Source: Polyangiaceae bacterium (GTDB lineage Bacteria > Myxococcota_A > Polyangia > Polyangiales > Polyangiaceae). From it: a stretch of DNA of 36,089 nucleotides. Under the pieces are notes generated by a model. That model worked only from the letters and a program-made list of their open reading frames with translations, was not told the origin of the DNA and did no database searches. The position numbers and the translations under genes are program-made. The DNA lies in the NCBI GenBank assembly GCA_020846005.1, contig JADLEQ010000105.1, positions 1 to 36,089 on the forward strand. The letters are read 5' to 3'. This document shows, piece by piece, positions 335 to 13,577 of the stretch. How positions within the stretch are numbered: the first letter of the stretch is position 1; each line of letters starts with the position of its first letter.

Positions 335-883
335 TCAGCGGTTCTGCTCCGGGTCGACGCCGGCGCCGCCGGGCTGCATGCCGGCGCGCCTCCAGCGCTC
401 TTCGTTGGTGAGGCCGTCCGTCGTCGGGGGCGGCGTCGCGTCCTTCACCACCAGCCGCGTGCGCCCCCGCTCCCGGATCACCTCGATCCGGTAGACCCGG
501 CTCGAGTCCGCGCCGAGCGAGACTCGCGGGAAGACGGTGCGCGCCGCGCCGGCCTCCACGTGGGTGGTGCTGACCCGCGCGCGGACGAAATTCGCGACCG
601 CCTCCGCCTCGACGCTCCCCACCGCGTGCACGGCGTCCGGGAAGCGGCGCTCGACGGTCATCCCCCGCGGGATCGGGAGGCCGAACGCGTCCTGCCCGCT
701 CGCCGCCAGCTCGCCCGGGGCGAGGCGGTCGGGGCTGGCGCCGCTCGCGGCGCCGCTCGCCGTCTCTCGCGCCGTCGGGCCGGGCCCGCCGCTCGGCTGG
801 GCGCCCTCGATCGCGCAGGCGCTGGCGCCGATCACCAGCGCGCCCGCGAGCGCCAGCCGTCGCACGTGCTCCCGGCCGCTCAC
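335..883 (-). CDS. Small lipoprotein coupled to pilY1
   Basis: This 182-residue protein starts at a GTG that overlaps the pilY1 stop (GTGA), so it is probably made by translational coupling. Residues 1-23 form a short lipoprotein signal (VRRLALAGALVIGASAC). Then come an Ala/Ser/Pro/Gly-rich linker and a compact C-terminal region of about 100 residues with alternating hydrophobics (VERRFPDAVHAVGSV, RVYRIEVIRERGRTRLVVKD) ending in a polar tail. I do not recognise a named family. Being last in the minor pilin/PilY1 operon suggests a periplasmic or outer-membrane role in pilus tip assembly; this is inference. The longer open frame upstream is only a shadow of pilY1. Confidence 0.75.
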   Translation of the reverse strand: MSGREHVRRLALAGALVIGASACAIEGAQPSGGPGPTARETASGAASGASPDRLAPGELAASGQDAFGLPIPRGMTVERRFPDAVHAVGSVEAEAVANFVRARVSTTHVEAGAARTVFPRVSLGADSSRVYRIEVIRERGRTRLVVKDATPPPTTDGLTNEERWRRAGMQPGGAGVDPEQNR

Positions 884-3800
884 TCGACGAGCGCCGCCCA
901 AGAGCTCTGCCGCGAGACGCTCGGGGGAGGTGGCAACGTGACCTCGAGGACGCGCGTCGCGCCGCCGGCCACCTGCGTCCCGCCCGACGCGCCGCCGTGC
1001 ATCACCAGGCGGAACTCGCCTGGGTTCACGTTGGTGAGGGACGTGTGGGCCCCGTAGCCGAGGAAGGCATCCGAGAACGACGTGTCCACCTCGTTGCAGC
1101 TCGGGAGCTGGGCGATGCCCACGCCGAAGATCGTGGCTCCCGAGAGGAGCGCGTTCGAGTCGTCGATGTACGCCACCAGGTTGGTGCCGTCCGGGAAGCG
1201 CGGCTGTCCGCCGTCGCCCGGCGTCCCCGCCGTCTCCGGGATCACGTAGTGGAGCCCGTAGATCCTCGCCGAGCCCGCGCTGCACGCGTCGCCCGAGGTG
1301 GGGGGCGCGTAGGTGGAGAAGTAGAGCACCCCGTTGAAGAGGCTCATCGTCCCCGAGACCCGCATCCCGCTCGAGAACGACTCGTACCAGTTCGCCTTCG
1401 ACTTGTAGGCCACGCCGGCGACCGTCTCGGTGAGCGACCAGACGTAGTTGGTGCCGGTCGTCGCCGAGAGATCCTCTTGATCGCCGGTCGAGAAGGCGAC
1501 GGTGATGCGGCCCGTGTCGTCCACGCTGAGGATGGGGGGCGTATTCACCGGCTGCCCGGCGTCGTACGCCGCGCCCGAGTACGCATCGAAGAAGAGCTTC
1601 ATCGTCCAGTCGTCCGGGTCGGGGCTCGACACGTCGACGCGCCACACGCCACCGTCCGCGTCGCCGACGAAGATGCGATCCGCGATCGCGCCCGTCTCGG
1701 CAGGGAACGCCACCGGCTGGCCGGTGATGGGCGAGTCGAGCGGCGCCTTGGTCGCGCCCGAGATCACCACGTCCGGGTCGAGCAGCGGCGCATCCGCCGC
1801 GTTACGCCGGAAGGTCCGCACGATCTCGCCCGTGTCGAGGCGCACGATGGTCAGCGCCCGAGCGCGGCCGATCGTCGTCGGGTCGTAGCAGCGGACCGAG
1901 GCCCGCGCCGCGAACGCAGAGTCCACGGTGGCGGTCGAAGACGCTGCGCGCGCCATCCCTGGCTGGCCGTCGCCGTCGCAGTCGCCGCCCACGGGAGACG
2001 CGAAGCCACCGGGGAGGACCGCCACCGCCACCTCGAGCGGATCGCTGGTCGGCGTCGGCTTGAGGAAGAGCGTCGTGATGAGCGGGGTCGAGCCGCCGCC
2101 GCCGAAGAGCGGCTGCGTGCCGGAGTCCGTGGTGAGCTGCCAGAGGAGGCGAGGTCCCGCGACTGGATCGGTCACGTCGAGCGCGAAGTACCCGGGGAGC
2201 GAGCGGCCGAAGCCCTGCACCAGCGCGGTGCGCCAGAGGTTCGTCCCGGTGCGAGCGGCCGGCGTGTCGCGGTCGAAGGCGTAGGTCGTGAGGCCGCCGT
2301 AGGCGCCGCCGAGGCTCCGCGCGACCACGTCGCGGGTGACCGGCGCGCCGTCGAGCAGGACGGTGTGCGCCGGTGCGGACGTGTCGCCGCCGCTGTACAT
2401 GCTCTGCAGGCGGGGGAGCACGGCGGGAGGCAGGAACGCCCAGAGCTCGTTGTTCTCGAGCGAGTCCACCTTGTCGGTGTCGCCCGGTCGCGGCGCCACG
2501 CGGAAGGCGTGGACGAAGCCGTCCGTCGTCGAGGTGTAGAGCACCATCGGGCGCCCCTTCGGCGCGTTGGCCGCGGCGATCGTCGGGTTGGCCGCGAAGC
2601 GCGCGTACGACTCGTCGCGGAGGAATTCGTTCGGCGTCCCCACGATGCGGGGCGTCGAGTGGAAGATGCCGCCGAGCAGGTTGCAGTCGGTGGCGCCCGG
2701 CACGGCGCAGCGATGATACGAGGTGCCGTTCGACAGCCCGACGAGCCACTGCATGATCCGCGAGCGACACGCGGCGTCCGTCGCCAGGCCGCAGGTGCCC
2801 GCCGTCACGCCTAGCGCGGTCGCCGGCGTCGCCGTGACGAACGTCGACGCGGAGGCGTTGTACGGGGTCCCGACGCGCACGCCGAGGCCGTCCGGATCGG
2901 CGGAGACGAGCGGCCGGATCGTGGCCGACGACGCGGTCGTGGCGTGGACCGAGAAGAACCGCCGCGCCGCGCCGCTGCCCGAGTCGAGGTTGGCGGCGAA
3001 GTCGTCCCCCGCCGTCGGATCGACCGGCTGCAGCTCGGGGTTCACGGTGGGGGGCGAGGTCGAGTTGTCCGTGACGCAGATGAACCGCTGGCGCTCGAGC
3101 GCGCCGTTCCACACGGAGAACTTGTTCGGCTGGAACGAGCTCAAGAAGCGGAACGAGCCGCCGAACGGGTCCCGAACGCCGCCCGCCGCGCCGAACACGG
3201 GGACCGTGCGGCTGGTCGTCGTCGAGCTGATCTGGGCGAGGATGGCGTTCAGCGCCGCGCGGAGCCCCGGGAGATCGTTGGCGAAGTGCGCGCGGGTGGT
3301 GCCGCCGTTGTACGCGATGCGGTTCAGCGTGCAGCAGGCTTGGAGCTTGCTCTCGTTCGGGTGCTGGGCGCACAGGCCGGTCGGCTGCTCCAGATCGGCC
3401 TGCGTGAGGGTCGTGCAGTCGACCGTCGTCGGGCCCGGCAGGGTGATGTTGGTGAGCGCGAACCCGACGACGAACGTCTTCACCGCGCCGGAGGTCTGCG
3501 TGGCCAGATCGAGCGCCGTGTCCTCGGGCTTCTCGTAGGGGCACTCGTCGACGGTGCCGCCGTCGACGCTCGCGCCCTCGCAGTACGGCCGAAGATCGAG
3601 GTTCGGCTGGCCGTCGGACAACAGGATGATGAAGTTCTCCCGGCACCCGCCCTGGACCTTGGGATCCGAGCGCGGGCTGACCGCCCAGGTACCCCGGGGA
3701 TCGGTCGCGGTGTCGTCGAACAGGTAGGACCGCGCGTCGTCGAGCATCCCCGCGATGGGGGTAGCGCCATATGGCCGGCTCTGGAGGAGCACCCGCTGGA

Positions 3801-4662
3801 CCTCGTCGTTGCGGCCGGAGGCGTTCGGCGCCTCGCTCGGGTCGCCGAACGTCACCATCCGGCCCTCCCAGGGCGGCGCGCCCGCGTTACGGCCGCCGAC
3901 CTCCATGGCCTGAGCCGGGTCCGTGCAGCCGACGGGGCGGCCGGTGGCCGAAGCGCCGACGAAATAGCTCCACGTCCCGCGGCTCCCGGCGGAGTAGTTC
4001 GGCGATGACGCCGACGCGTACCCCACCGAAGCGTCGGTGTGCGTGTCGAAGGTCATCAGCCCGAACCGCACCCGCGTGCTGTACGTGTCGATGAGGCCGT
4101 CCGCCCACTGCGCCGAGCTCCCCTGCATGTTGAACCAGGTGCCGGTACACTCCGCACCCGCGCTGGGGAAGGCGCCCGTGTAGTTCCACGCCCACGCCTT
4201 GAAGGAGGCCGCGGGGAAGTCGAAGACGCTGCCGGTGACCGCCGCCGGGAGACTCCCGGCGCCCGGCCCGCACCCCGTGGAGCCGCTCAGCGGCCGGTGA
4301 TATGGTACCGGGTAGCGGTAATCCGGGGGGGCGGCGCCGGAGAGCCCGTAGGTCACGTACTCGTCCTGGAACCGCCCGCCCGCGCGGGGCAGCGCGTGGC
4401 AGCTGTAGTCCTTGATCGAGCCGGTCAGCACCTCCAGGAGCTCGACCCAGCGGCTCTTCTCGCTGCCGGCCACGCCGGGGGTGCAGACTGGCGTCGAGTC
4501 CGAGCCGGACTTGTACTCCATCGAGCCGGAGGAATCGACGAGCAGCAGGACGTTGGGCGGCGGCGGATCCACGTCCGTCTGCGCGCTGGCGTGGCCGGTG
4601 AACACCCAGCCCGCCAGCGCCGCGCTGCCGCCGACCAGGATTCGAGGGAGGGGGTTCTTCAT
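880..4662 (-). CDS. pilY1: PilY1-like type IV pilus tip adhesin
   Basis: This 1260-residue secreted protein has a signal peptide ending near residue 28 (HASA-QTD). A VWA domain follows, with MIDAS motif D43-S-S-G-S47 and a later LLSDGQPN strand near 347. From about 660 comes a PilY1-type beta-propeller, recognised by HSTPRIVG, LYTSTTDGFVHAFR, ELWAFLPPAVLPRL, HTVLLDGAPVTRD and DADGGVWRVD. DCDGDG at 894-899 resembles a calcium-binding loop. Cysteines are numerous, as expected for an extracytoplasmic protein. In known systems PilY1 caps the pilus with the minor pilins and promotes extension and adhesion. It lies 16 bp after pilX in the same operon. Length is within the family range. Confidence 0.93.
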   Translation of the reverse strand: MKNPLPRILVGGSAALAGWVFTGHASAQTDVDPPPPNVLLLVDSSGSMEYKSGSDSTPVCTPGVAGSEKSRWVELLEVLTGSIKDYSCHALPRAGGRFQDEYVTYGLSGAAPPDYRYPVPYHRPLSGSTGCGPGAGSLPAAVTGSVFDFPAASFKAWAWNYTGAFPSAGAECTGTWFNMQGSSAQWADGLIDTYSTRVRFGLMTFDTHTDASVGYASASSPNYSAGSRGTWSYFVGASATGRPVGCTDPAQAMEVGGRNAGAPPWEGRMVTFGDPSEAPNASGRNDEVQRVLLQSRPYGATPIAGMLDDARSYLFDDTATDPRGTWAVSPRSDPKVQGGCRENFIILLSDGQPNLDLRPYCEGASVDGGTVDECPYEKPEDTALDLATQTSGAVKTFVVGFALTNITLPGPTTVDCTTLTQADLEQPTGLCAQHPNESKLQACCTLNRIAYNGGTTRAHFANDLPGLRAALNAILAQISSTTTSRTVPVFGAAGGVRDPFGGSFRFLSSFQPNKFSVWNGALERQRFICVTDNSTSPPTVNPELQPVDPTAGDDFAANLDSGSGAARRFFSVHATTASSATIRPLVSADPDGLGVRVGTPYNASASTFVTATPATALGVTAGTCGLATDAACRSRIMQWLVGLSNGTSYHRCAVPGATDCNLLGGIFHSTPRIVGTPNEFLRDESYARFAANPTIAAANAPKGRPMVLYTSTTDGFVHAFRVAPRPGDTDKVDSLENNELWAFLPPAVLPRLQSMYSGGDTSAPAHTVLLDGAPVTRDVVARSLGGAYGGLTTYAFDRDTPAARTGTNLWRTALVQGFGRSLPGYFALDVTDPVAGPRLLWQLTTDSGTQPLFGGGGSTPLITTLFLKPTPTSDPLEVAVAVLPGGFASPVGGDCDGDGQPGMARAASSTATVDSAFAARASVRCYDPTTIGRARALTIVRLDTGEIVRTFRRNAADAPLLDPDVVISGATKAPLDSPITGQPVAFPAETGAIADRIFVGDADGGVWRVDVSSPDPDDWTMKLFFDAYSGAAYDAGQPVNTPPILSVDDTGRITVAFSTGDQEDLSATTGTNYVWSLTETVAGVAYKSKANWYESFSSGMRVSGTMSLFNGVLYFSTYAPPTSGDACSAGSARIYGLHYVIPETAGTPGDGGQPRFPDGTNLVAYIDDSNALLSGATIFGVGIAQLPSCNEVDTSFSDAFLGYGAHTSLTNVNPGEFRLVMHGGASGGTQVAGGATRVLEVTLPPPPSVSRQSSWAALVE

Positions 4663-4678: not shown

Positions 4679-5332
4679 TTAGCGGGGGAGGGGACCCACG
4701 GTGACGTGGGCCCGGAGGGTCTGTACGCCGACGGTGCGGGTGGTGGCTTCGGTGCAGGTCGAGTTGTCGCCGAAGGTCGCGTTCGGGCGCACCTGGCCCA
4801 TCGCGGTGAGCGTCAGCTCCAGGTAGCGGAAGGTCGTCCCCGTGCCGCCCACGTCCGTCCCCGCGACGGGCCGATCGGCGGGCCCGGGGTCGGTGAGCTC
4901 CACCACGAAATTGCCGTCGATCGGATCTCCGTAGGCGACCGTCGAGAGGCTGTCCGTGAGCAGCGTCCCCCCGACGGAGGCGACGCGCTGGTCGAGCTCG
5001 CCCTTGTAGAGCTTGTAACAGGCGGGCTTCACGCCCGCGACGATCTGCGGCTGGTCCTTCGTGGCGACGCAGTCGTCCGGCGTGGTCGACCCGAGCTGCT
5101 CGACGTAGGCGCTCCCGGCGCCCGAGCCGAGCTCGGCCATCGTCGTCACGGCGCCGAGCTCCGCGACGTACTGCGTCTGCACCGCCTGCCGCGCGTACCC
5201 GGCGCCCGCGGTGACGATGCTCGTCGAGCGCGCCGCGAACACGCCGACCGCGGACAGGAGCATCACCGCGAGGACGACGACGAAGACCGCCGCGCCGCGT
5301 TGCTCGCGCCGGCGAGCCGCTCGCCTCACCAT
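4679..5332 (-). CDS. pilX: PilX-like minor pilin
   Basis: This protein of 217 residues has an N-terminal basic segment (RRAARRREQRG) followed directly by one hydrophobic helix (AAVFVVVLAVMLLSAVGVFAA). This is the PilX layout, which lacks the classical G-FTLVE processing site. The rest is a polar domain with few cysteines, typical of a pilin head. ATG at 5332 lies 7 bp inside the end of pilW. Gene order pilV-pilW-pilX-pilY1 matches minor pilin operons of other bacteria, and that order supports the call more than the sequence does. Expected role: part of the priming complex at the pilus tip. Confidence 0.82.
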   Translation of the reverse strand: MVRRAARRREQRGAAVFVVVLAVMLLSAVGVFAARSTSIVTAGAGYARQAVQTQYVAELGAVTTMAELGSGAGSAYVEQLGSTTPDDCVATKDQPQIVAGVKPACYKLYKGELDQRVASVGGTLLTDSLSTVAYGDPIDGNFVVELTDPGPADRPVAGTDVGGTGTTFRYLELTLTAMGQVRPNATFGDNSTCTEATTRTVGVQTLRAHVTVGPLPR

Positions 5333-6579
5333 GTCACCCCCGAGTGGTTGCGGAGCGCCACGTCGGCCTGGAAGGTGCGGACCCTCGCGTAGGGCCCCGC
5401 CCCGGCGGCGCCGAGGGCGACCCGGTAGAGGCGGGTGCCGTCGTCGTGGGGACCCGGGCGGTCCGGAGCGCGGGTACGGACGGCGAGCCTCGCGCGGACG
5501 CCGCGCACGCGCTGGGTCGCCGGGGTCGCCGAGGTCCCGCCGAAATCACCGAACGAGAGCGACGTGCCCGCCTCGCAGCCCACCCCGTTCGTGCACCGCA
5601 GGTGGGTCAACACGGGATCGACGCCCGAGGTGCCGAGCGTGTCCACGACCGTGAGGCCGAGATCGAGATCCACGGTGTACTCCGCCACGAGCTCCTCGGT
5701 GCCTGCGATCGCCGCCGAGTCCACCGTGGACGTGGCGGTGAGCTCGCCCCGGACCAGCTCCGTCCGGTCGGTGTCGAACCCGGGGACGACGGCGTAGGCG
5801 TCGTCGAGCTGGTCGTAGGCGGCGGTGGCAGCGATCGGGCGCACGTCGTAGCGGATGAAGTTCACCACGTTCGCGAGCGCGCCGACCTCGTTCACGTGGA
5901 GGCCGCACGTCGTCCCCGACGCCCGGAAGGTGAGCGGGATGGAGTCCTTGAGGACGACGTACGGCGCCGTCGCGCTCCACACCGCTGTGGAGATGATGCC
6001 GAAGTGGGTGCGGCCGGTGCGGTCGATGATGCGCATCCCGCGGTCCGTCCCGAAGACCGCCTGGAGCGTCTCGTTGGACGAGATGCCCGCCCGCGCGATG
6101 GGTCCGCTGTTCGGCTGGAGGTAGACCCGATACGTGGTCCCGCTCACCTCCACCGTGGTGATGGGGAACTGCTCGCCCGACGCGAAGCTGCCCGCGAGGA
6201 CGACGCGGTCCGGCGCGAGGTTGTTCGCGGTGAGCGTCGGGTTCGTCGCCGAGCCGCCGTCGACGACCTTGAGGCTCGTGAGCTGCTCGAGGAGGCCGTC
6301 CGCCCAGGTCGCGGGCGCGTAGCCGCAGACCGACGGGTCGCTCCGCACGTTCGGCGAGCTGAGGAACCCGGCGCGGGCGAGATCGAGGCGTAGCCGCTGG
6401 AAGCCGACGAGCCCCGAGAACGTCGCCGTCGCCAGCCGCGACTCGCGCTGGTGGAAGGTCGTCCCCTCTCGGGCGAGCGAGAAGACCGCGACGGCCACGA
6501 ACAGCCCGCCCGTCAGCGCCACCATGAGCTCGACGAGCGTGAAGCCGCGGGCGCGGTCGTAGCGGAGGGGGGGACGCAT
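5326..6579 (-). CDS. pilW: PilW-like minor pilin
   Basis: This protein of 417 residues has a type IV prepilin leader RARG12|F13-TLVE17, with the conserved Glu at +5, and a hydrophobic helix to about residue 33. The large C-terminal domain fits PilW, the biggest of the minor pilins. The start ATG at 6579 shares one base with the stop of the upstream gene (TGATG). In-frame sequence upstream of this ATG overlaps pilV and is not part of the gene. Predicted to be processed by PilD and inserted in the inner membrane before pilus assembly. Confidence 0.88.
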   Translation of the reverse strand: MRPPLRYDRARGFTLVELMVALTGGLFVAVAVFSLAREGTTFHQRESRLATATFSGLVGFQRLRLDLARAGFLSSPNVRSDPSVCGYAPATWADGLLEQLTSLKVVDGGSATNPTLTANNLAPDRVVLAGSFASGEQFPITTVEVSGTTYRVYLQPNSGPIARAGISSNETLQAVFGTDRGMRIIDRTGRTHFGIISTAVWSATAPYVVLKDSIPLTFRASGTTCGLHVNEVGALANVVNFIRYDVRPIAATAAYDQLDDAYAVVPGFDTDRTELVRGELTATSTVDSAAIAGTEELVAEYTVDLDLGLTVVDTLGTSGVDPVLTHLRCTNGVGCEAGTSLSFGDFGGTSATPATQRVRGVRARLAVRTRAPDRPGPHDDGTRLYRVALGAAGAGPYARVRTFQADVALRNHSGVTW

Positions 6580-7223
6580 CAGGGGGCCGTGTTCTGCCGG
6601 ATGGCGCTCGCCTTGTGGACGAAATAGTAGGAGCCCGCGGTGGTGCCGACGCTGGCCGCGGCGATCGACGCGTCGCACACCGGCTTGGTCGCGTCCACGC
6701 CCCCCGCGCCGCCCTCGCGGAGCCAGAAGACGCGGACCTCGGCGCGGACCACGCCGTTGCCGGACATCAGCGTGTCGTCGCGATAGAGCCAGCTCAGCCG
6801 CAGGTGGGTGCAGAACACGGCGTCGCCCATGTCGGCGTCCGCGACCGGGTTGCCGAGCGGATCGAAGCCGGGGCCCATGCGCAGCGGTGTCGACGAGTGG
6901 GGCCGCCACCAGATGCCGTTCCCGCCGCCGGGGTTGCCGCCGGTGCACGCCGCGTTCACGCCGCACAGCCACGTGGTGTCTGCGAGATCGGAGGTCGTCC
7001 GCCGAGGGGAGGGGTGGTTCCACGAGGCGGCGTCGGCGACGAGCTTCTCCTCCCAGGCCTGCGCGATCGCGGTGGCGATGGCGACGTTGCGCGCGTGACG
7101 GTTCGCGGCCGAGGTCACCTTGTGCAGCGCGATGACGCCCGTCACGCCGATCGCGAGGATGGCGACCGCCATCATGAGCTCGACGATGCTGTAGCCCCGG
7201 AGGGGCGCGCGCCGGCGGCTCAT
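6579..7223 (-). CDS. pilV: PilV-like minor pilin
   Basis: This protein of 214 residues has prepilin leader APLRG10|Y-SIVELMMAVAILAIGVTGV, the usual PilV pattern (Y or M-like residue, then S/T-hydrophobic-E). The body contains AIAQAWEEKLV and a few cysteines. ATG at 7223 overlaps the stop of the fimT-like gene as ATGA, which fixes the start; an upstream in-frame extension exists but lies within that gene. Predicted tip-complex minor pilin. Confidence 0.88.
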   Translation of the reverse strand: MSRRRAPLRGYSIVELMMAVAILAIGVTGVIALHKVTSAANRHARNVAIATAIAQAWEEKLVADAASWNHPSPRRTTSDLADTTWLCGVNAACTGGNPGGGNGIWWRPHSSTPLRMGPGFDPLGNPVADADMGDAVFCTHLRLSWLYRDDTLMSGNGVVRAEVRVFWLREGGAGGVDATKPVCDASIAAASVGTTAGSYYFVHKASAIRQNTAP

Positions 7224-7924
7224 CCGGCACCTCCGATCCGTGCCGCGCCGTTCGGCGGCAGGAACACCCACCGCGTCAGGCCGACCGGGTTGTTCGAGGT
7301 GTCGTGGCGGTACACGGACGCGCGCGCGAGCCCGCCCGCGGGGAGCCACGCGCCCACCGCCCCCAATCGCCAGAAGCTCCTGCCGAGGGGCGTGTAACAG
7401 ATGTCGAGATCGGAGTCGTCGGTCGCGGTGCCCGAGCCGTCGTAGGGGCGGTACATCCGGACGCGGAGGGCGTCGAACGTCTGGTTGTTCGACGGCACGA
7501 ACAGGTTGATCACCGTGGAGTCGGTGTCATCCCACAGGGGCGCGGTGCAGCTCGAGGCCGGCAGCGGCGCGCACGTGGCGCCCGCCACGGCCGCGCCCTG
7601 CATCGCCTCGCGCACCTGGAACGCGCCGGCGGAGTCCGTCGCCTTGGAGAAGCGGACCATCACCGCGCTGCCGCGACCGAGCGCCCGCATCCGGGCGTCC
7701 CGGAACAGGTTGGTCACGCGGTTCGTCGCCTCGAGCGTCCGCGCGTTGCGCATCCTCGTCCGCAGCGAAGGCACCGCGATCACCGCGAGCGCGGAGATGA
7801 TGATCACCACGACCATCAGCTCGATCAGCGTGAAGCCTCGCGCCGAGCGACGCGCTGCGTCGAAGCCGGGACGGCGCCCCGCCGGCGTGGTGACCGGCGA
7901 GGAGGGCGAGCGAGGGATCCGCAT
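7220..7924 (-). CDS. fimT: FimT/FimU/GspH-type pseudopilin, first gene of the operon
   Basis: This protein of 234 residues has prepilin site ARG30|F31-TLIE35-LMVVVIIISALAVIAVPSL and a GspH/FimT-like head with several cysteines. The 29-residue leader is unusually long, but no other in-frame ATG/GTG/TTG occurs between the ATG at 7924 and the processing site. It opens the minor pilin operon; pilV follows with an ATGA overlap. A sigma-54-like promoter ends only about 12 bp upstream of the start, implying an almost leaderless transcript. It could equally be named fimU or gspH. Confidence 0.88.
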   Translation of the reverse strand: MRIPRSPSSPVTTPAGRRPGFDAARRSARGFTLIELMVVVIIISALAVIAVPSLRTRMRNARTLEATNRVTNLFRDARMRALGRGSAVMVRFSKATDSAGAFQVREAMQGAAVAGATCAPLPASSCTAPLWDDTDSTVINLFVPSNNQTFDALRVRMYRPYDGSGTATDDSDLDICYTPLGRSFWRLGAVGAWLPAGGLARASVYRHDTSNNPVGLTRWVFLPPNGAARIGGAG

Positions 7925-7936
7925 CCGACCCCGCAG

Positions 7937-7952
7937 AGCAAGCGCCGTGCCG
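7937..7952 (-). promoter_or_regulatory. Sigma-54 (-24/-12) promoter of the minor pilin operon
   Basis: On the minus strand this reads CGGCACG-GCGC-TTGCT. It matches the sigma-54 consensus TGGCACR-N4-TTGCW at every specified position except the first T, with the required GG-N10-GC spacing. The predicted transcription start (about 12 bp after the -12 GC) falls near 7926, next to the fimT ATG at 7924. The main pilin gene pilA of Myxococcus xanthus is known to be sigma-54/PilR dependent, so the placement makes biological sense. Confidence 0.7.
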
Positions 7953-8015
7953 GCCGCCGCTCAGGCTGGAGGGCGGTTGCGCGCGGGAAATCGGCCAGGA
8001 ACCGCGGGACGCACG

Positions 8016-8046
8016 GCAAGGATTGCAACACTCTGCAAGGGTTGCA
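8016..8046. promoter_or_regulatory. Paired inverted repeats, probable enhancer-binding-protein sites
   Basis: Two dyads lie 19 bp centre to centre: GCAA-GGA-TTGC (8016-8026) and TGCAA-GGG-TTGCA (8034-8046). Their inner arms also form TTGCA-N6-TGCAA. Relative to the predicted pilin-operon start near 7926 they sit at about -95 and -114, the usual distance for NtrC/PilR-type activators of sigma-54. They could alternatively be an operator for the divergent lipoprotein gene at 8104. Confidence 0.5.
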
Positions 8047-8103
8047 TAGCCGGATGAAACTGCGCGCCCGTACAGCGTCTTGCGGCGCGTCGGGGGCGAG
8101 GTC

Positions 8104-9213
8104 ATGCGTCGGCACATGCCCCGCGCCCGGCTGGCCCCGCTCACCACGCTCCTCCTGCTCCTCGGCTGCGCGCGGCGCGAGGACGCGGCGCGCGAGCAGG
8201 GGCAGGCGCCGCCGCCCCCAGCCGCGGCCTCGGCCGGCGCGTGCGCGGGCGGGGGCGGGGGGGTCGCCGACCCGGGGAGCGCCGGGCTCTTCCCTCGGGT
8301 GGCGGCCGGCTACTGCGTCGACCCGAACGGCGAGACGCGCGCGTTCGGCCAGTCGGCGCCGTCGCCGCTCGAGGCGGTCTGCCTGCAGGTGCTCGACGGC
8401 GAGTGTGAGGTGTATCGGCGCTACGGGTTGGCCCGCGCGGTCACCCTCCGGTACGTGGACGGAGGCGGTACGTCCGGCACCGTCGACGTGAAGCTCTCGC
8501 GCTTCGGCTCGCGGGAGGGCGCGTTCGGGTTCTTCACGAAGCGTGTGGTCGCCGACTCCGATCCGGCGCGCACCAACCTCGCGGGGCTCGACGCCGGCGG
8601 CGCCGGCGCGCTCGGTAGCACCATCGCCTACGTGTGGCGCGGGGACCACGTCCTCGAACTCACCTACGCGAACGATCAGGAGGCGCCCGCCGCGCTGAAG
8701 GCGAGCGCGGCCCGGGTGCTGCCGCCGCTGGCCGCGGCGATCGGCGCGCTGCTCCCGGGCGAGCTGACGCTCCCCGAGGCCGTGACGAAGCTCCCCGCCG
8801 CGGGCCGCCTCCCGCTCGGGATCGCGTTCCAACCGCGCGACGCGCTCGACGTACCTGGGCTCGGGCCGGGCGCGGTGGCGTTCCACGCCGACGGTGGCGT
8901 CCGCTACCGCACGCTCGCGCTCGTGCGCGCGGACGACGCGGCGGCGCGGGACGTGATGGCGACGCTCCGCCGCCTCGGCGGGGCGCGCAAGCGCGAGGGG
9001 CTGCCCTTCGAGGCGGTGGTGGTCGCGTTCGGGGACGGGGTCGACGCGCCGCGCGTCGAGTGGGTGATCGGGCGCGTCGGCTCGGCCGTCCTCGGGATCG
9101 GCGATGAGCCGCTCGCGCGCCCGGCGGCCGACGCGGCGGCCGGCTCGCCACTCTCGGCCGACGCGAAGGCCGAGCGGCTCCGCGCGTGGGCGGCGCCCGC
9201 GACGAAGCCGTAG
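8104..9213 (+). CDS. Lipoprotein, DUF6599-like
   Basis: A protein of about 369 residues if started at ATG 8104; ATG 8116 and TTG 8080 are alternatives in the same frame. A short signal (RLAPLTTLLLLLGC) ends in lipobox L-L-G-C, so a membrane-anchored lipoprotein is expected. After an Ala/Pro/Gly linker the domain contains VTLRYVDGG..VDVKLSRFGSREGAFGFF, resembling the DUF6599 pattern (a strand, then a DA-x-GIFS-like segment). That assignment is from memory. No enzyme motif is visible. It diverges from the pilin operon and lies 53 bp before the acyl-CoA dehydrogenase, which seems to have its own promoter. Confidence 0.72.
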   Translation: MRRHMPRARLAPLTTLLLLLGCARREDAAREQGQAPPPPAAASAGACAGGGGGVADPGSAGLFPRVAAGYCVDPNGETRAFGQSAPSPLEAVCLQVLDGECEVYRRYGLARAVTLRYVDGGGTSGTVDVKLSRFGSREGAFGFFTKRVVADSDPARTNLAGLDAGGAGALGSTIAYVWRGDHVLELTYANDQEAPAALKASAARVLPPLAAAIGALLPGELTLPEAVTKLPAAGRLPLGIAFQPRDALDVPGLGPGAVAFHADGGVRYRTLALVRADDAAARDVMATLRRLGGARKREGLPFEAVVVAFGDGVDAPRVEWVIGRVGSAVLGIGDEPLARPAADAAAGSPLSADAKAERLRAWAAPATKP

Positions 9214-9266: not shown

Positions 9267-10412
9267 GTGAACTTCGACCTCCCCGAGTCCCACCGAATCC
9301 TCCGCCAGGCCGTCCGCGAGTTCTGCGAGAAGGAGGTCCGCCCCTACGCTCGAGAGTGGGACGCCGAGGAGCGGTTCCCGATGGAGCTCGTGCCCAAGCT
9401 GGCCGAGCTCGGCCTGCTCGGGATCCGGATCCCGGAGGCGTACGGCGGCGCCGGGATGGACACGCTCGCGTACGCGGTCGCCGTCGAGGAGTGCGCGCGG
9501 GTCGACGGCTCGCTCGCGCTGACGGTCGCCAGCCACAACGGCCTCGGGACGGGTCACCTCCTCGCCTTCGGCACCGAGGCGCAGAAGCAGCGCTACCTCC
9601 CCAAGGCCGCGAGCGGGGAGTGGCTGGCCGCGTGGGCGCTCACCGAGCCCGGCTCCGGCTCGGACAGCGCCGGGATGCTCACGACCGCCGTGCGCGACGG
9701 GGACTCCTGGGTGATCGACGGCACGAAGATGTTCATCACCCAGGGAGGCGTAGGGGGGTTCTGTGTGGTGCTCGCGCGCACGAACCGATCCGTGCCGGCC
9801 CAGCGCGGGATCACCGCCTTCATCGTCGACGCTGGGACGCCCGGGTTCCGCGCCAGCCGCAAGCTCGAGAAGTACGGGTGTCGCTGGAGCGACACCGCCG
9901 AGCTCACCTTCGAGGGTGTCCGCGTCCCGGACTCGCAGCGCCTCGGCGCCGTGGATCACGGGTTCTACGACACCATGAGCATCCTGGATCGGGGTCGGGT
10001 GTCCATCGGGGCGATGGCCCTCGGCCTCGGGCGCGGCGCGCTCGAGCTGGCGATCCGCTACGCGAAGGACCGCCGCGCCTTCGACCGCCCGATCGCGGAC
10101 TTCCAGGCCATCCAGTGGAAGTTGGCGGACGCAGCGACCCAGCTCGACGCCGCCGATCTCCTCATCCGGCGCGCGGCCTGGCTCGCCGATCGGGGGGAGC
10201 CCTATTCGCGGGAGGCGAGCATGGCGAAGCTCCTGGCGAGCGAGGCGGCGACGCGCGCTTGCAACGACGCGGTGCAGATCCACGGTGGCTACGGGTACAC
10301 GCGGGAGTTCGAGGTGGAGCGCCACCTGCGCGACGTGAAGCTGTGCGAGATCGGCGAGGGGACGAGCGAGGTGCAGCGGATGGTGATCGCCAAGCACCTG
10401 CTCCGGGCCTGA
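9267..10412 (+). CDS. Acyl-CoA dehydrogenase
   Basis: This flavoenzyme of 381 residues oxidises acyl-CoA to trans-2-enoyl-CoA, passing electrons to ETF. Domain signs in order: the N-terminal helical domain (RQAVREFCEKEVRPYAREWD), the FAD/substrate motif WALTEPGSGSD, the beta domain (DGTKMFIT), RRAFDRPIADFQAIQWKLAD, and the C-terminal signature QIHGGYGYTREFEVERHLRD ... IGEGTSEVQR. The catalytic Glu is the E before GTSE. GTG at 9267 is chosen because the family N-terminus begins right there; the longer frame would run back into the previous gene. There is no ribosome binding site, and TGCTAGTC lies 7 nt before the GTG, suggesting a leaderless start. Chain-length specificity cannot be read; short-chain or branched-chain type is likely. 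Confidence 0.95.
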   Translation: MNFDLPESHRILRQAVREFCEKEVRPYAREWDAEERFPMELVPKLAELGLLGIRIPEAYGGAGMDTLAYAVAVEECARVDGSLALTVASHNGLGTGHLLAFGTEAQKQRYLPKAASGEWLAAWALTEPGSGSDSAGMLTTAVRDGDSWVIDGTKMFITQGGVGGFCVVLARTNRSVPAQRGITAFIVDAGTPGFRASRKLEKYGCRWSDTAELTFEGVRVPDSQRLGAVDHGFYDTMSILDRGRVSIGAMALGLGRGALELAIRYAKDRRAFDRPIADFQAIQWKLADAATQLDAADLLIRRAAWLADRGEPYSREASMAKLLASEAATRACNDAVQIHGGYGYTREFEVERHLRDVKLCEIGEGTSEVQRMVIAKHLLRA

Positions 10413-10423
10413 GGCACGGCCGC

Positions 10424-10455
10424 CGGGCGCTCGTCGCGGCGCCGGAGCGCGCCCG
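10424..10455. terminator. Possible hairpin between convergent genes
   Basis: A 7 bp stem CGGGCGC / GCGCCCG with an 18 nt loop lies between the converging acyl-CoA dehydrogenase and parvulin genes. There is no U-tract. In DNA this GC-rich such stems occur by chance, so support is weak. Confidence 0.3.
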
Positions 10456-10460
10456 CCGCG

Positions 10461-11003
10461 CTACTCCGTGCGCTGGATCACGTGGAAGCCGAACGCGGTC
10501 TCCACGACCTCGGAGATCTCTTGCGCGTCCAGCTCGAAGGCGGCGTCGGCGAACGCCTTCACCACCTGGCGGCGGGTGATTCGGCCGATGCTCCCGCCCC
10601 GCTCCTTCGCGCCCGGCTCGTCGGAGTACTCCGTGACCAGCGCCTCGAAGTCCTCCCCAGCGCGCGCGCGCGCGAGCGCCTCCACGGCCCGCTCCCGCGC
10701 GGCCTCCTTGTTGCGCGTGATGGAGGGCGGCGCGCGCATGGCCCCCGCGTACTGGACCAGGAGGTGGCGGACCGCGATGGCCGGCTCGGCGCGCTCGGCG
10801 CCGCCCGGCGCGGCCGTCTCCTCCGGCTCGAGCGGCGGCGCCTGGGACACCGGGGGCGGGGGCGGCGGAGGGACACGTGGCGGCTCGCCCGGCCCCTCGT
10901 GCGTCGTGACCACGCACGCGGCCGCGCCGCCGCACAGCGCCGCGGCGACCGCGAGCCACGCCGCGCGCCCGCGCGCGGTCGCGCTGCTGGAGGGCGGCGT
11001 CAC
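10461..11003 (-). CDS. Parvulin-type peptidyl-prolyl isomerase lipoprotein
   Basis: This protein of 180 residues starts at a GTG overlapping the stop of the preceding parvulin gene (GTGA). A lipoprotein-like signal ends with A-A-A-C30, followed by a proline-rich linker. From about residue 75 a parvulin (rotamase) domain follows: [11 protein letters not shown], long helix with [52 protein letters not shown]. Parvulins isomerise X-Pro bonds and act as periplasmic chaperones. The C-terminal domain is clearly a close duplicate of the one in the gene before it, but the membrane anchor differs. Confidence 0.88.
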
Positions 11004-11851
11004 TCGGTCCGCTTGATCACGTGGAAGCCGAACGGAGTCTCGACGATACCGGACAGCTCGCCCACCTTCAGCTGGAAGGCCGCGGCGGAGAACGCCGGGA
11101 CCATCGCCTGGCGATTGAACTTCCCGAGCGCGCCGCCGCGCTGGCCCGCGCCTGGCTCGTCCGAGAACTCGCCGACGAGCTTCGCGAACTCCTCGCCCTT
11201 CTTCGCGCGCGCGAGCGCCTCCTCGGCGCGCTTGCGCGCCTCCTCTTTCGTGCGGGTGGCGGTGGCGCGCGTCGCGCCCTGGTAGGCGACGAGGAGGTGG
11301 CTCGCGGCGATCTGGCCGTCCGGCGGCACGGGCGCGGCCTCGGCGGAGGCGGCGGGCTGGGTCTCGTGCTCCCCACTCTTCTCGTGCTTGCCGAACCCGC
11401 GCATCCCGCCGATCAAGCCGACGCTCAGCAGCAGGATGAGCACGGCCCACGGCGCCCAGTCCGGCAGCCAGTCGTGCTCGTCGACGTGCTGCTCCGCCGG
11501 GGGCTCGCCCGCCGGCGGCCTGCGGGTCGTGGCCGGGCCGGGCGCGATCGGCGGCCCCCGGCGGCGCGCCCCGGCCGAGGAGGCAGGGGCCGACTTGCCC
11601 GCGCGCCCCTGCGACGGCGGTGCGCCCTTGCCCTTCCTCGGGGGCGGGGCGGGCTCGTCGTCCTCGTCGTCGAGGTCCTCGTCGTCGTCGAGGTCCTCGT
11701 CGTCGTCGAGGTCCTCGTCGTCGCCGAGGTCCTCGTCGTCCTCCTCCTCGGGGCGGCGGCGCGATGACGCTCCGTCGCGGGAGCTCGCGTCCTGGCCCCG
11801 GGCTGCCTTCGAGCCGGCGGCCTTGCTTGCGGGGGTCTTCGTCTTCGCCAT
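11000..11851 (-). CDS. Membrane-anchored parvulin with acidic N-terminal tail
   Basis: A protein of 283 residues: a basic start, an acidic repeat at about 36-66 built from (D)DDEDL units, a Pro/Lys/Arg-rich linker, one transmembrane helix at about 132-151 ([18 protein letters not shown]), and a parvulin domain at about 182-283 ([39 protein letters not shown]). With a single helix and no cleavable signal, the acidic tail is predicted in the cytoplasm and the isomerase domain in the periplasm. ATG at 11851 is 5 bp after the MaoC stop; the long upstream open frame is a shadow. Part of the maoC-parvulin-parvulin operon. Confidence 0.88.
11672..11743. repeat. 18 bp tandem repeat encoding DDDEDL units
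   Basis: The unit gaggtcctcgtcgtcgtc on the plus strand recurs about four times at 11672, 11690, 11708 (one change) and 11726 (partial). It codes, on the minus strand, for the acidic tail of the membrane parvulin. The unit is a multiple of three. Confidence 0.8.
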
Positions 11852-11856
11852 GCGCC

Positions 11857-12696
11857 TCAGCCGATCTCCGCCCACGCGCTGGTGATCACGGGCTCCGGGC
11901 GATCCGCAGCGTACGCCATCACGGCGACGCGACCGCCGCCCAGATCCCAGCCCTTCGTCGTGATCGCCTCTCCGGGCCAGACCGGCTTGCGGAACTGGGC
12001 CTCGTAGGTCTTGATGCGCTGCGAGTCGCCGCCCGCCGCGTGCCGGGCGACGGCGCGCGCCACGAACCCGTACGTGCAGAGCCCGTGGAGGATGGGACCC
12101 TGGGGGAAGCCCACCATCGCCGCGAAGTCGGGGTCGGCGTGGAGGGGGTTCATGTCGCCGCTCAGCCGGTAGAGCAGCGCCTGCTCCGGGGTGGTGGCCT
12201 CGGTGTGGATCCAGCTCGGCTCCGCCCCTGCCGGGACCTCGGGCACCTCCCGCTTGGGCGGCGGGTCGCCGCCGAAGCCGCCCTCGCCCCGGTAGATGAT
12301 CCCCCACTCCGTCTCGAACAGGAGCTTGTCCCCGAGGCGCGTCTCCGTGGTGATGACGCACTGGGCCATCTTCTTCATGTCGTAGATGCCCGCGATCCGC
12401 GCGACCGTCTTCAGCGTCCCCTCCGAGGGGATCGGCGCGTGCATGCGGACCACCTGGCTGCCGTGCACGATCATCGCGGGGTTCCCCTGCGTCTTGCCGA
12501 GGCACTCCCCGATCGCCATCATCGGCGGGATCACCGCGAAGCTCGGGAACACCTTCGGGCCCTTGCCCTCGTAGAGGTAGTCGAGCTCGTCCCGCTTGGC
12601 GCCGATCCCGAGCGCGTAGCGAACGACCGTCCGCCAGTCGTATTCGAACTCCGTCGCGGTCGAGGTGAAGCCAGCGGAGGTGAGGTCGAGGGACAT
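11857..12696 (-). CDS. MaoC-like enoyl-CoA hydratase 2
   Basis: This protein of 279 residues has the double hot-dog architecture of (R)-specific hydratase 2 (as in the MFE-2 hydratase unit). It adds water to trans-2-enoyl-CoA. The first hot-dog half covers about 1-140 ([32 protein letters not shown]). The second half carries the hydratase signature [17 protein letters not shown] with the Asp/His pair, then [13 protein letters not shown] at 12696 has an AAAGGAG site 8 nt upstream, one of the few clear ribosome binding sites here. It leads the operon with the two parvulins, with no obvious functional link to them. Confidence 0.93.
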
Positions 12697-12830
12697 GCAG
12701 CGTGCTCCTTTGCGAGCCGGCGGGGATAGTTTCGCCTCCGCGCGTCGTCAACGGCGCGCCCCGCGGCGGAGCGCCCGGCGCGACGCCGGGGCGCGGCCCC
12801 CGCCCGGCCGATTCACGCGGGGCGCCCACG

Positions 12831-13577
12831 ATGGTAGCGGAGGGTCGCGTGGAGCCGGGCCTGGTGGAGTCGATCGCGCGTGGCGTGGGCGCGTCCGGTG
12901 ACGACCTCGCGCGGCTCGGCGCCGGATGGGCGCGCGTGACGCCCAGCCTGGTGCTCGTCCCCGCGCTCGGGCTCCGGGCGCTGCCCGCCGCGGCCCGGGT
13001 AGTGCTCGGTGGGGTGCTCGCCATGATCTTGATCCCGGCGATGCCCGCGCCGCAGGGTCCGGCGGGGGCTCCGCTCGAGCTGCTGACGGAGGCGGCGCGC
13101 GGCCTCCCCGTCGCCGCCACCGCTGCGGCGCTGCTCTGGGCGGCGTCTCAGGCCGGCGGCCTCATCGACGATCTGAGGCGGGAGCGAGGCGCGGCCGCGC
13201 TGCCCGTGGTCGAGTCGGGCGCTCCGGCGACTGGCGCGCTGTTCTCGATGCTCGCGTCGATCGCGTTCCTGGAGACCGGCGGGCCGGCGCGCCTCACCCG
13301 CGCCCTCGCCCAGGCGCCGCCGCCGACGGCCGCGGCCGCGGTCGAGGTGGCGGCGCACCTGGTCGCGGGGATCGAGCTCGCCCTGGCGCTGGCGGCGCCG
13401 CTGGTCGTGGTGTCGCTCGTCACCGAGCTCGGGGGCGCGCTGGTGGCGCGCGCCGCGACCCCGGCTTGGATCGACGCGCTGCTCGCGCCGGCGCGCTCGC
13501 TCGCCGTCCTCTGCGCGCTCGCGCTCGTCCTCGAGCGGATCGCGGAGCTACTGGTGGTCCTCGGCGCCCGCGCGTGA
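12831..13577 (+). CDS. SctT/FliR-family type III export apparatus protein
   Basis: A hydrophobic protein of 248 residues with several membrane segments ([100 protein letters not shown]). The order of segments, the polar loop after [13 protein letters not shown] and the length (FliR about 260) fit the SctT/FliR export gate subunit. Normally it sits beside SctR, SctS and SctU; here no such neighbour is adjacent, but an SctU-like gene lies about 11 kb away. GTG at 12849 is an alternative start. The 3' end overlaps the converging CBS gene by 30 bp. Flagellar versus secretion type cannot be decided from this gene alone. Confidence 0.75.

Follow-up and report, generated by a model that had tools for sequence, protein, structure and literature searches.

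PilY1 and the minor pilins decide whether type IV pili are primed and what the pilus tip binds. What controls the operon that encodes these proteins in a Polyangiaceae bacterium, and is it controlled together with the main pilin? In the 36,089-nt stretch of DNA analyzed here (the window), a preliminary description had read a sigma-54 promoter with paired upstream dyads and had proposed that a regulator of the NtrC/PilR type switches the tip genes, perhaps along with pilA. Our analysis bears out the promoter and its enhancer. It also suggests that transcription begins almost at the first start codon and that the activator is probably a protein other than PilR.

The operon comprises five genes, all on the minus strand. 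The first encodes a fimT/fimU-type minor pilin of 234 aa (7220..7924), identified by its N_methyl motif (PF07963) and its orthologues. A pilV-type minor pilin follows (6579..7223), its start overlapping the fimT stop (ATGA), then a pilW-type minor pilin (5326..6579) that overlaps the pilV stop, and a pilX-type protein (4679..5332) that overlaps the pilW stop and was assigned from position and synteny, having no Pfam match. The last gene encodes a PilY1-like tip adhesin of 1260 aa (880..4662), named from its place in the conserved gene order; it has no Pfam match at E<=0.001 and is 30-52% identical over most of its length to the proteins at the equivalent position in relatives. Across the intergenic region lies a divergent gene for a DUF6599 protein (8104..9213, plus strand; PF20244, E=3.6e-21), whose start codon is uncertain. 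The order fimT-pilV-pilW-pilX-pilY1 with the divergent DUF6599 gene is kept in nearly all loci examined. As a divergent neighbor of the pilus-tip operon in most relatives, the DUF6599 protein may have a function connected with the pilus tip. The same contig also encodes a FliR/SctT-type export protein (Bac_export_1, PF01311; window positions 12702-13577).

The promoter core before fimT, CGGCACG-GCGC-TTGCT, is read on the minus strand at 7937..7952, where CGGCACGGCGCTTGCT (7952-7937) has exact -24/-12 spacing and departs from the consensus TGGCACG-N4-TTGCW at the first base alone among the scored bases. It lies 12 nt from the fimT ATG, in agreement with the distance of about 12 bp described before. 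The 5.7-Mb genome contains 15 copies of the pattern GGCACGNNNNTTGCW, as against 2 of the reversed control pattern; thus most such sites are probably real. The genome encodes one RpoN and ~24 strong enhancer-binding proteins. The fimT site therewith combines GG/GC spacing, conservation, an encoded RpoN with activators, and an enhancer within ~80-150 bp upstream, the features by which a sigma-54 promoter is recognized.

Conservation in close relatives was one ground on which the preliminary description had let its reading stand or fall. Orthologues of fimT are present in most of the 59 related genomes searched, and all 39 orthologous fimT-pilV-pilW-pilX-pilY1 loci carry a sigma-54 site upstream of fimT, with no variation at the G-G, the A and the TTGC. 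In these loci the best sigma-54-like site scores 13-16 of 16 and the second best 9-13. Taken more broadly, a site scoring >=13 was found in 63 of 64 loci of the order Polyangiales and in 26/29 loci from other classes of the phylum; at the same threshold the background was 3/93 on the reverse strand, 7/165 in same-strand downstream windows and 5% in shuffles. The family and order labels used here are those assigned by the tool, with the name Polyangiales taken from one named relative together with the literature. The dyads are likewise kept, as a tandem upstream activating sequence (UAS) discussed below.

In the window this UAS is a 34-bp element, ATGCAACCCTTGCAGAGTGTTGCAATCCTTGCCG, at 8014..8047 on the minus strand, extending from about -88 to -121. 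It contains a perfect distal dyad, TGCAA-CCC-TTGCA (TGCAACCCTTGCA, 8034..8046), centered at about -114, and a proximal dyad with one mismatch, TGCAA-TCC-TTGCC (TGCAATCCTTGCC, 8015..8027), centered at about -95, so that the two lie 19 bp apart on the same strand, just as first reported. The dyads taken alone would be weak evidence, because TGCAANNNTTGCA, which has a single exact copy in the genome, before fimT, is not enriched there at one mismatch (25 matches, versus 46 for the control). On the same counts the single dyad was rejected as the motif of a large regulon. What makes the dyads convincing is that both their position and their distance from the promoter are conserved. When the sequences lying upstream of the sigma-54 sites in the 39 loci were searched blind for motifs, one 34-bp motif emerged, roughly [CT]GCAAnnnTTGCATAGCnn[CT]GCAATCnTTnC, in 37 of them, with a total score of 1124 versus 390-429 in shuffled controls; each of its repeats is one of the two dyads already described. 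From the end of the UAS to the sigma-54 site the distance is 61-65 bp in 32/39 loci. The other 7 have a different spacing, some of these motif calls being weak or misaligned, and two loci (G003 and G013) have no recognizable UAS. The strict motif matches 17 times in the 59 genomes and once in the control. Thirteen of the 17 are the fimT promoter, and the remaining four, all in relatives, had no clear sigma-54 or pilus context on inspection. In other classes, weaker repeats following the pattern TGmAAnnnTTkCATAG can be seen before fimT.

The promoter with its paired enhancer is therefore real and conserved, far from what chance would give, and the tip operon is very likely under sigma-54 control, with expression of fimT and the genes behind it predicted to depend on RpoN. 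We hold with considerable confidence, from sequence comparison, that an activated NtrC/AtoC-class protein, probably not PilR, acts from this enhancer on the sigma-54 promoter to drive a near-leaderless operon mRNA. In this scheme the activator would bind the TGCAA-N3-TTGC dyads between -88 and -121 as two neighboring dimers. By looping it would contact RNA polymerase-sigma-54 at -24/-12, about 61-65 bp downstream, and remodel it, with transcription beginning at about 7926. The polycistronic fimT-pilV-pilW-pilX-pilY1 mRNA would have its 5' end about 2 nt ahead of the fimT AUG and be translated in near-leaderless fashion, the later genes starting translation through their overlap with, or closeness to, their neighbors.

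Which protein acts at the enhancer can be approached through the candidates that the genomes offer. Beside fimT, a search for GAFTGA and Walker motifs in about 41 loci, over regions of up to about 11 kb, found no activator genes, and a UAS scan around the activator genes of this genome, aimed at autoregulation, gave best scores at noise level. One candidate for the activator is an AtoC-like regulator encoded elsewhere in the genome (G000:C21:17774-19123, locus L199), acting through AtoC-like half sites. Among the enhancer-binding proteins of this genome that were compared, its HTH is closest to that of E. coli AtoC (score 118, next 102). The verified AtoC sites, GCTATGCAGAAAATTGC (PMC3118216), resemble the reverse complement of the UAS, GCTATGCAAAAGTTGC, although the half-site spacing differs by one base. 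Nearly every genome of the family that bears fimT has an orthologue 72-83% identical. Of the genomes lacking fimT, two (G005 and G021) were found to have the L199-type regulator only as a form without the receiver domain, one has a diverged version and two have none. This support is correlative, however, and the comparison across genomes covered two regulators. Moreover, the gene lies away from the pilus genes, and its product carries GAFTDA instead of GAFTGA. One genome, G009, keeps the orthologue without a full-length fimT match, and three (G023, G024 and G032) have fimT and no detected orthologue, all four assemblies being incomplete. The L199 protein is a weak candidate, suggestive only, and we would sooner expect another activator than this one. 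As a protein in its own right it belongs to a highly conserved NtrC/AtoC-class group (positions 1263-2666 of L199 on contig C21, with orthologues at L248-L277), in which GAFTDA is replaced once by GAFTHA.

A second reading makes PilR the activator, switching fimT together with pilA. In this genome two pilin genes directly follow the gene for a PilR-like regulator (receiver, AAA+, HTH_8), whose orthologues are present in most genomes with fimT and absent from all those of the set that lack it; pilA likewise has a sigma-54 site. That co-occurrence, however, is expected for any pilus-linked gene, and the upstream sequences of the two promoters differ. In relatives, a sigma-54 site often lies 12-20 nt from the start of the pilin gene that adjoins pilR, and in several loci the dyads ahead of this gene are GTGAC-N6-GTCAC instead of the fimT UAS. 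The pattern TGAC-N6-8-GTCA was found in 6/22 pilA loci and 0/39 fimT loci, whereas repeats of the GCAA-N3-TTnC type were found in 21 of the 39 fimT loci and in none of the 22 pilA loci. The fimT UAS itself is absent from the pilA upstream regions, where the best score is 1.3 as against >20 in most fimT loci. Across this genome the UAS was found once, at fimT, even when one mismatch was allowed. The earlier suggestion that PilR switches the tip genes with the main pilin thus lacks support; at the level of upstream binding motifs, joint control of fimT and pilA is rejected, and we consider PilR an unlikely activator. With different dyads at pilA and a UAS that is unique in its genome, a separate enhancer-binding protein is likely, and the activator of the tip operon is probably other than that of pilA.

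The pilA side of this comparison yields several observations of its own. Dyads of the form GTGAC-N6-GTCAC precede the pilA sigma-54 site at L227, L229, L233, L235, L240 and L243, and this sequence is a probable PilR site of the order. In the present genome, the PilR-like regulator followed by two prepilin genes occupies positions 10062-13046 of locus L126 (contig C106), and a degenerate sigma-54-like site, TGGCGCGGAACGTGCT, precedes the ATG of the first prepilin gene by exactly 12 nt. At about 12440-13400 of L128 (contig C55), immediately upstream of pilB, there is an extended run of short direct repeats whose reading frames are full of VHHGVGPSRRGSITAW-like units; a sigma-54 scan of the pilB/pilT region gave nothing convincing.

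The most surprising part of the locus is the placement of its start codon. Counting 12 nt from the C of the -12 GC puts the predicted transcription start at 7926 on the minus strand, giving a leader of 2 nt and an mRNA with the 5' end GGAUG. From the stop upstream to the prepilin cleavage motif, the reading frame offers no ATG, GTG or TTG other than the fimT ATG (7924-7922). The preliminary description noted neither this short leader nor its return throughout the order. From the -12 element to the first usable fimT start, the commonest distance in the order is exactly 12 nt (20 of 63 loci), and in 50 of the 63 the distance is 12-20 nt. In other classes, fimT genes with a single possible start have that start >=32 nt from the -12 element. 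Nor is the arrangement confined to fimT. At independent consensus sigma-54 sites of this and related genomes, a start codon lies at 12-16 nt in 16/42 cases, against a null of 5.5% (P about 3e-10), and in 11/42 when ATG alone is counted, against 1.4%. Many pilA genes also have start codons 12-16 nt past the -12 element. Almost none lie <10 nt from it, and the starts pile up just past the predicted +1. Since start codons at 12-16 nt are shared by fimT, pilA and 16 of 42 further sites, near-leaderless sigma-54 transcripts look like a rule. These counts are evidence, rather than proof of leaderless translation, that +1 probably lies where sigma-54 rules predict and that near-leaderless messages may be common in the regulon; we infer the exact +1 and the mode of translation at fimT on the same basis. 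Two TGGCACG-N4-TTGCA sites at L027 and L028 (contigs C97 and C98), directly before GCGCGC repeats near contig ends, are probably repeats rather than promoters.

A leader of 2 nt has no room for a Shine-Dalgarno site. Conversely, were transcription to begin further upstream, the GGGG stretch a few bases before the fimT ATG would be a possible place for one, and some other near-start sites have G-rich stretches too. Such features would suit another upstream promoter with a normal leader and Shine-Dalgarno site, the sigma-54 site near the start then being a roadblock or a secondary input. However, start codons that pile up past +1 and almost never fall <10 nt from the -12 element are what is expected if +1 sets the limit, and an enhancer that is conserved and keeps its distance implies activation. 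We find the upstream-promoter account improbable. That the dyads serve the divergent DUF6599 gene and have nothing to do with the sigma-54 site would fit their place in the intergenic region shared with that conserved gene, but it is largely refuted already and very improbable, as the distance from UAS to DUF6599 start varies from -13 to about 300 bp while that to the sigma-54 site is fixed, and as the UAS is kept where the fetched upstream region gave no DUF6599 match (e.g., in G016).

The preferred reading, a sigma-54 promoter under its own activator with its start codon just past +1, has several implications. First, a promoter that is nearly unchanged across the order, with an enhancer distinct from that of the main pilin, would mean that tip composition and fiber supply are switched separately. 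Second, the near-leaderless sigma-54 arrangement, if true, would make activator-controlled genes independent of Shine-Dalgarno initiation and would link the class of sigma factor to the mode of translation. We found no description of such a link, and no literature on leaderless sigma-54 transcripts in this group, in open-licence PubMed Central. More broadly, we lean toward the view that much of the sigma-54 regulon of the Polyangiales, the tip operon and the main pilin included, is near-leaderless, with the start codon at ~+3 to +7 set by the -12 element in place of the leader of 20-35 nt that is predicted for this operon in other classes, and that the tip operon has its own dedicated activator, not PilR. 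Finally, the 34-bp UAS offers a probe for identifying that activator.

It is useful to compare this operon with known systems. In M. xanthus, two pilY1 clusters are direct targets of HsfA, an NtrC-like regulator (PMC9109919), so that there too minor pilin/PilY1 operons of a myxobacterium are under an NtrC-class response regulator. HsfA affects the two clusters in opposite ways, and a heat-shock gene and secondary metabolism are also under its control; in the text searched, no sigma-54 core, tandem UAS or leader appears. A survey of myxobacterial PilY1 proteins places those of the Polyangiales in a clade of their own, in a text without promoter analysis (PMC13190605), and in a survey of sigma-54 the pseudopilin group COG2165 is reported to be mildly enriched in Polyangia (PMC12316311). 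NmpR acts on the expression of pilR, whose product drives pilA (PMC6211767). Like the PilSR-sigma-54 systems at pilA in M. xanthus and P. aeruginosa (PMC6211767, PMC6058289), the fimT operon appears to combine sigma-54 and an activator of the NtrC class in the control of pilus genes; unlike them, it has different dyads and serves the tip complex rather than the main pilin. The orthologous type of operon in P. aeruginosa, fimU-pilVWXY1E, is under two-component control as well, but is activated by FimS-AlgR and Vfr, sigma-54 being unnamed among the activators in the passages at hand (PMC5979040). At the atoDAEB promoter of E. coli (PMC3118216), AtoC half sites GCTATGCA...TTGC are likewise paired upstream of a sigma-54 promoter, and the half sites of the UAS resemble the GCTATGCA type; the AtoC sites, however, have a spacer one base longer than that of the fimT UAS, are mutually inverted and serve a metabolic target. 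Lastly, leaderless mRNAs of Sinorhizobium meliloti and Deinococcus-Thermus (PMC3616915, PMC12340547) similarly begin at the start codon or right beside it. There they arise from other promoters or at low frequency, whereas here the -12 element of sigma-54 would set the position of the start codon at a large part of the sites.
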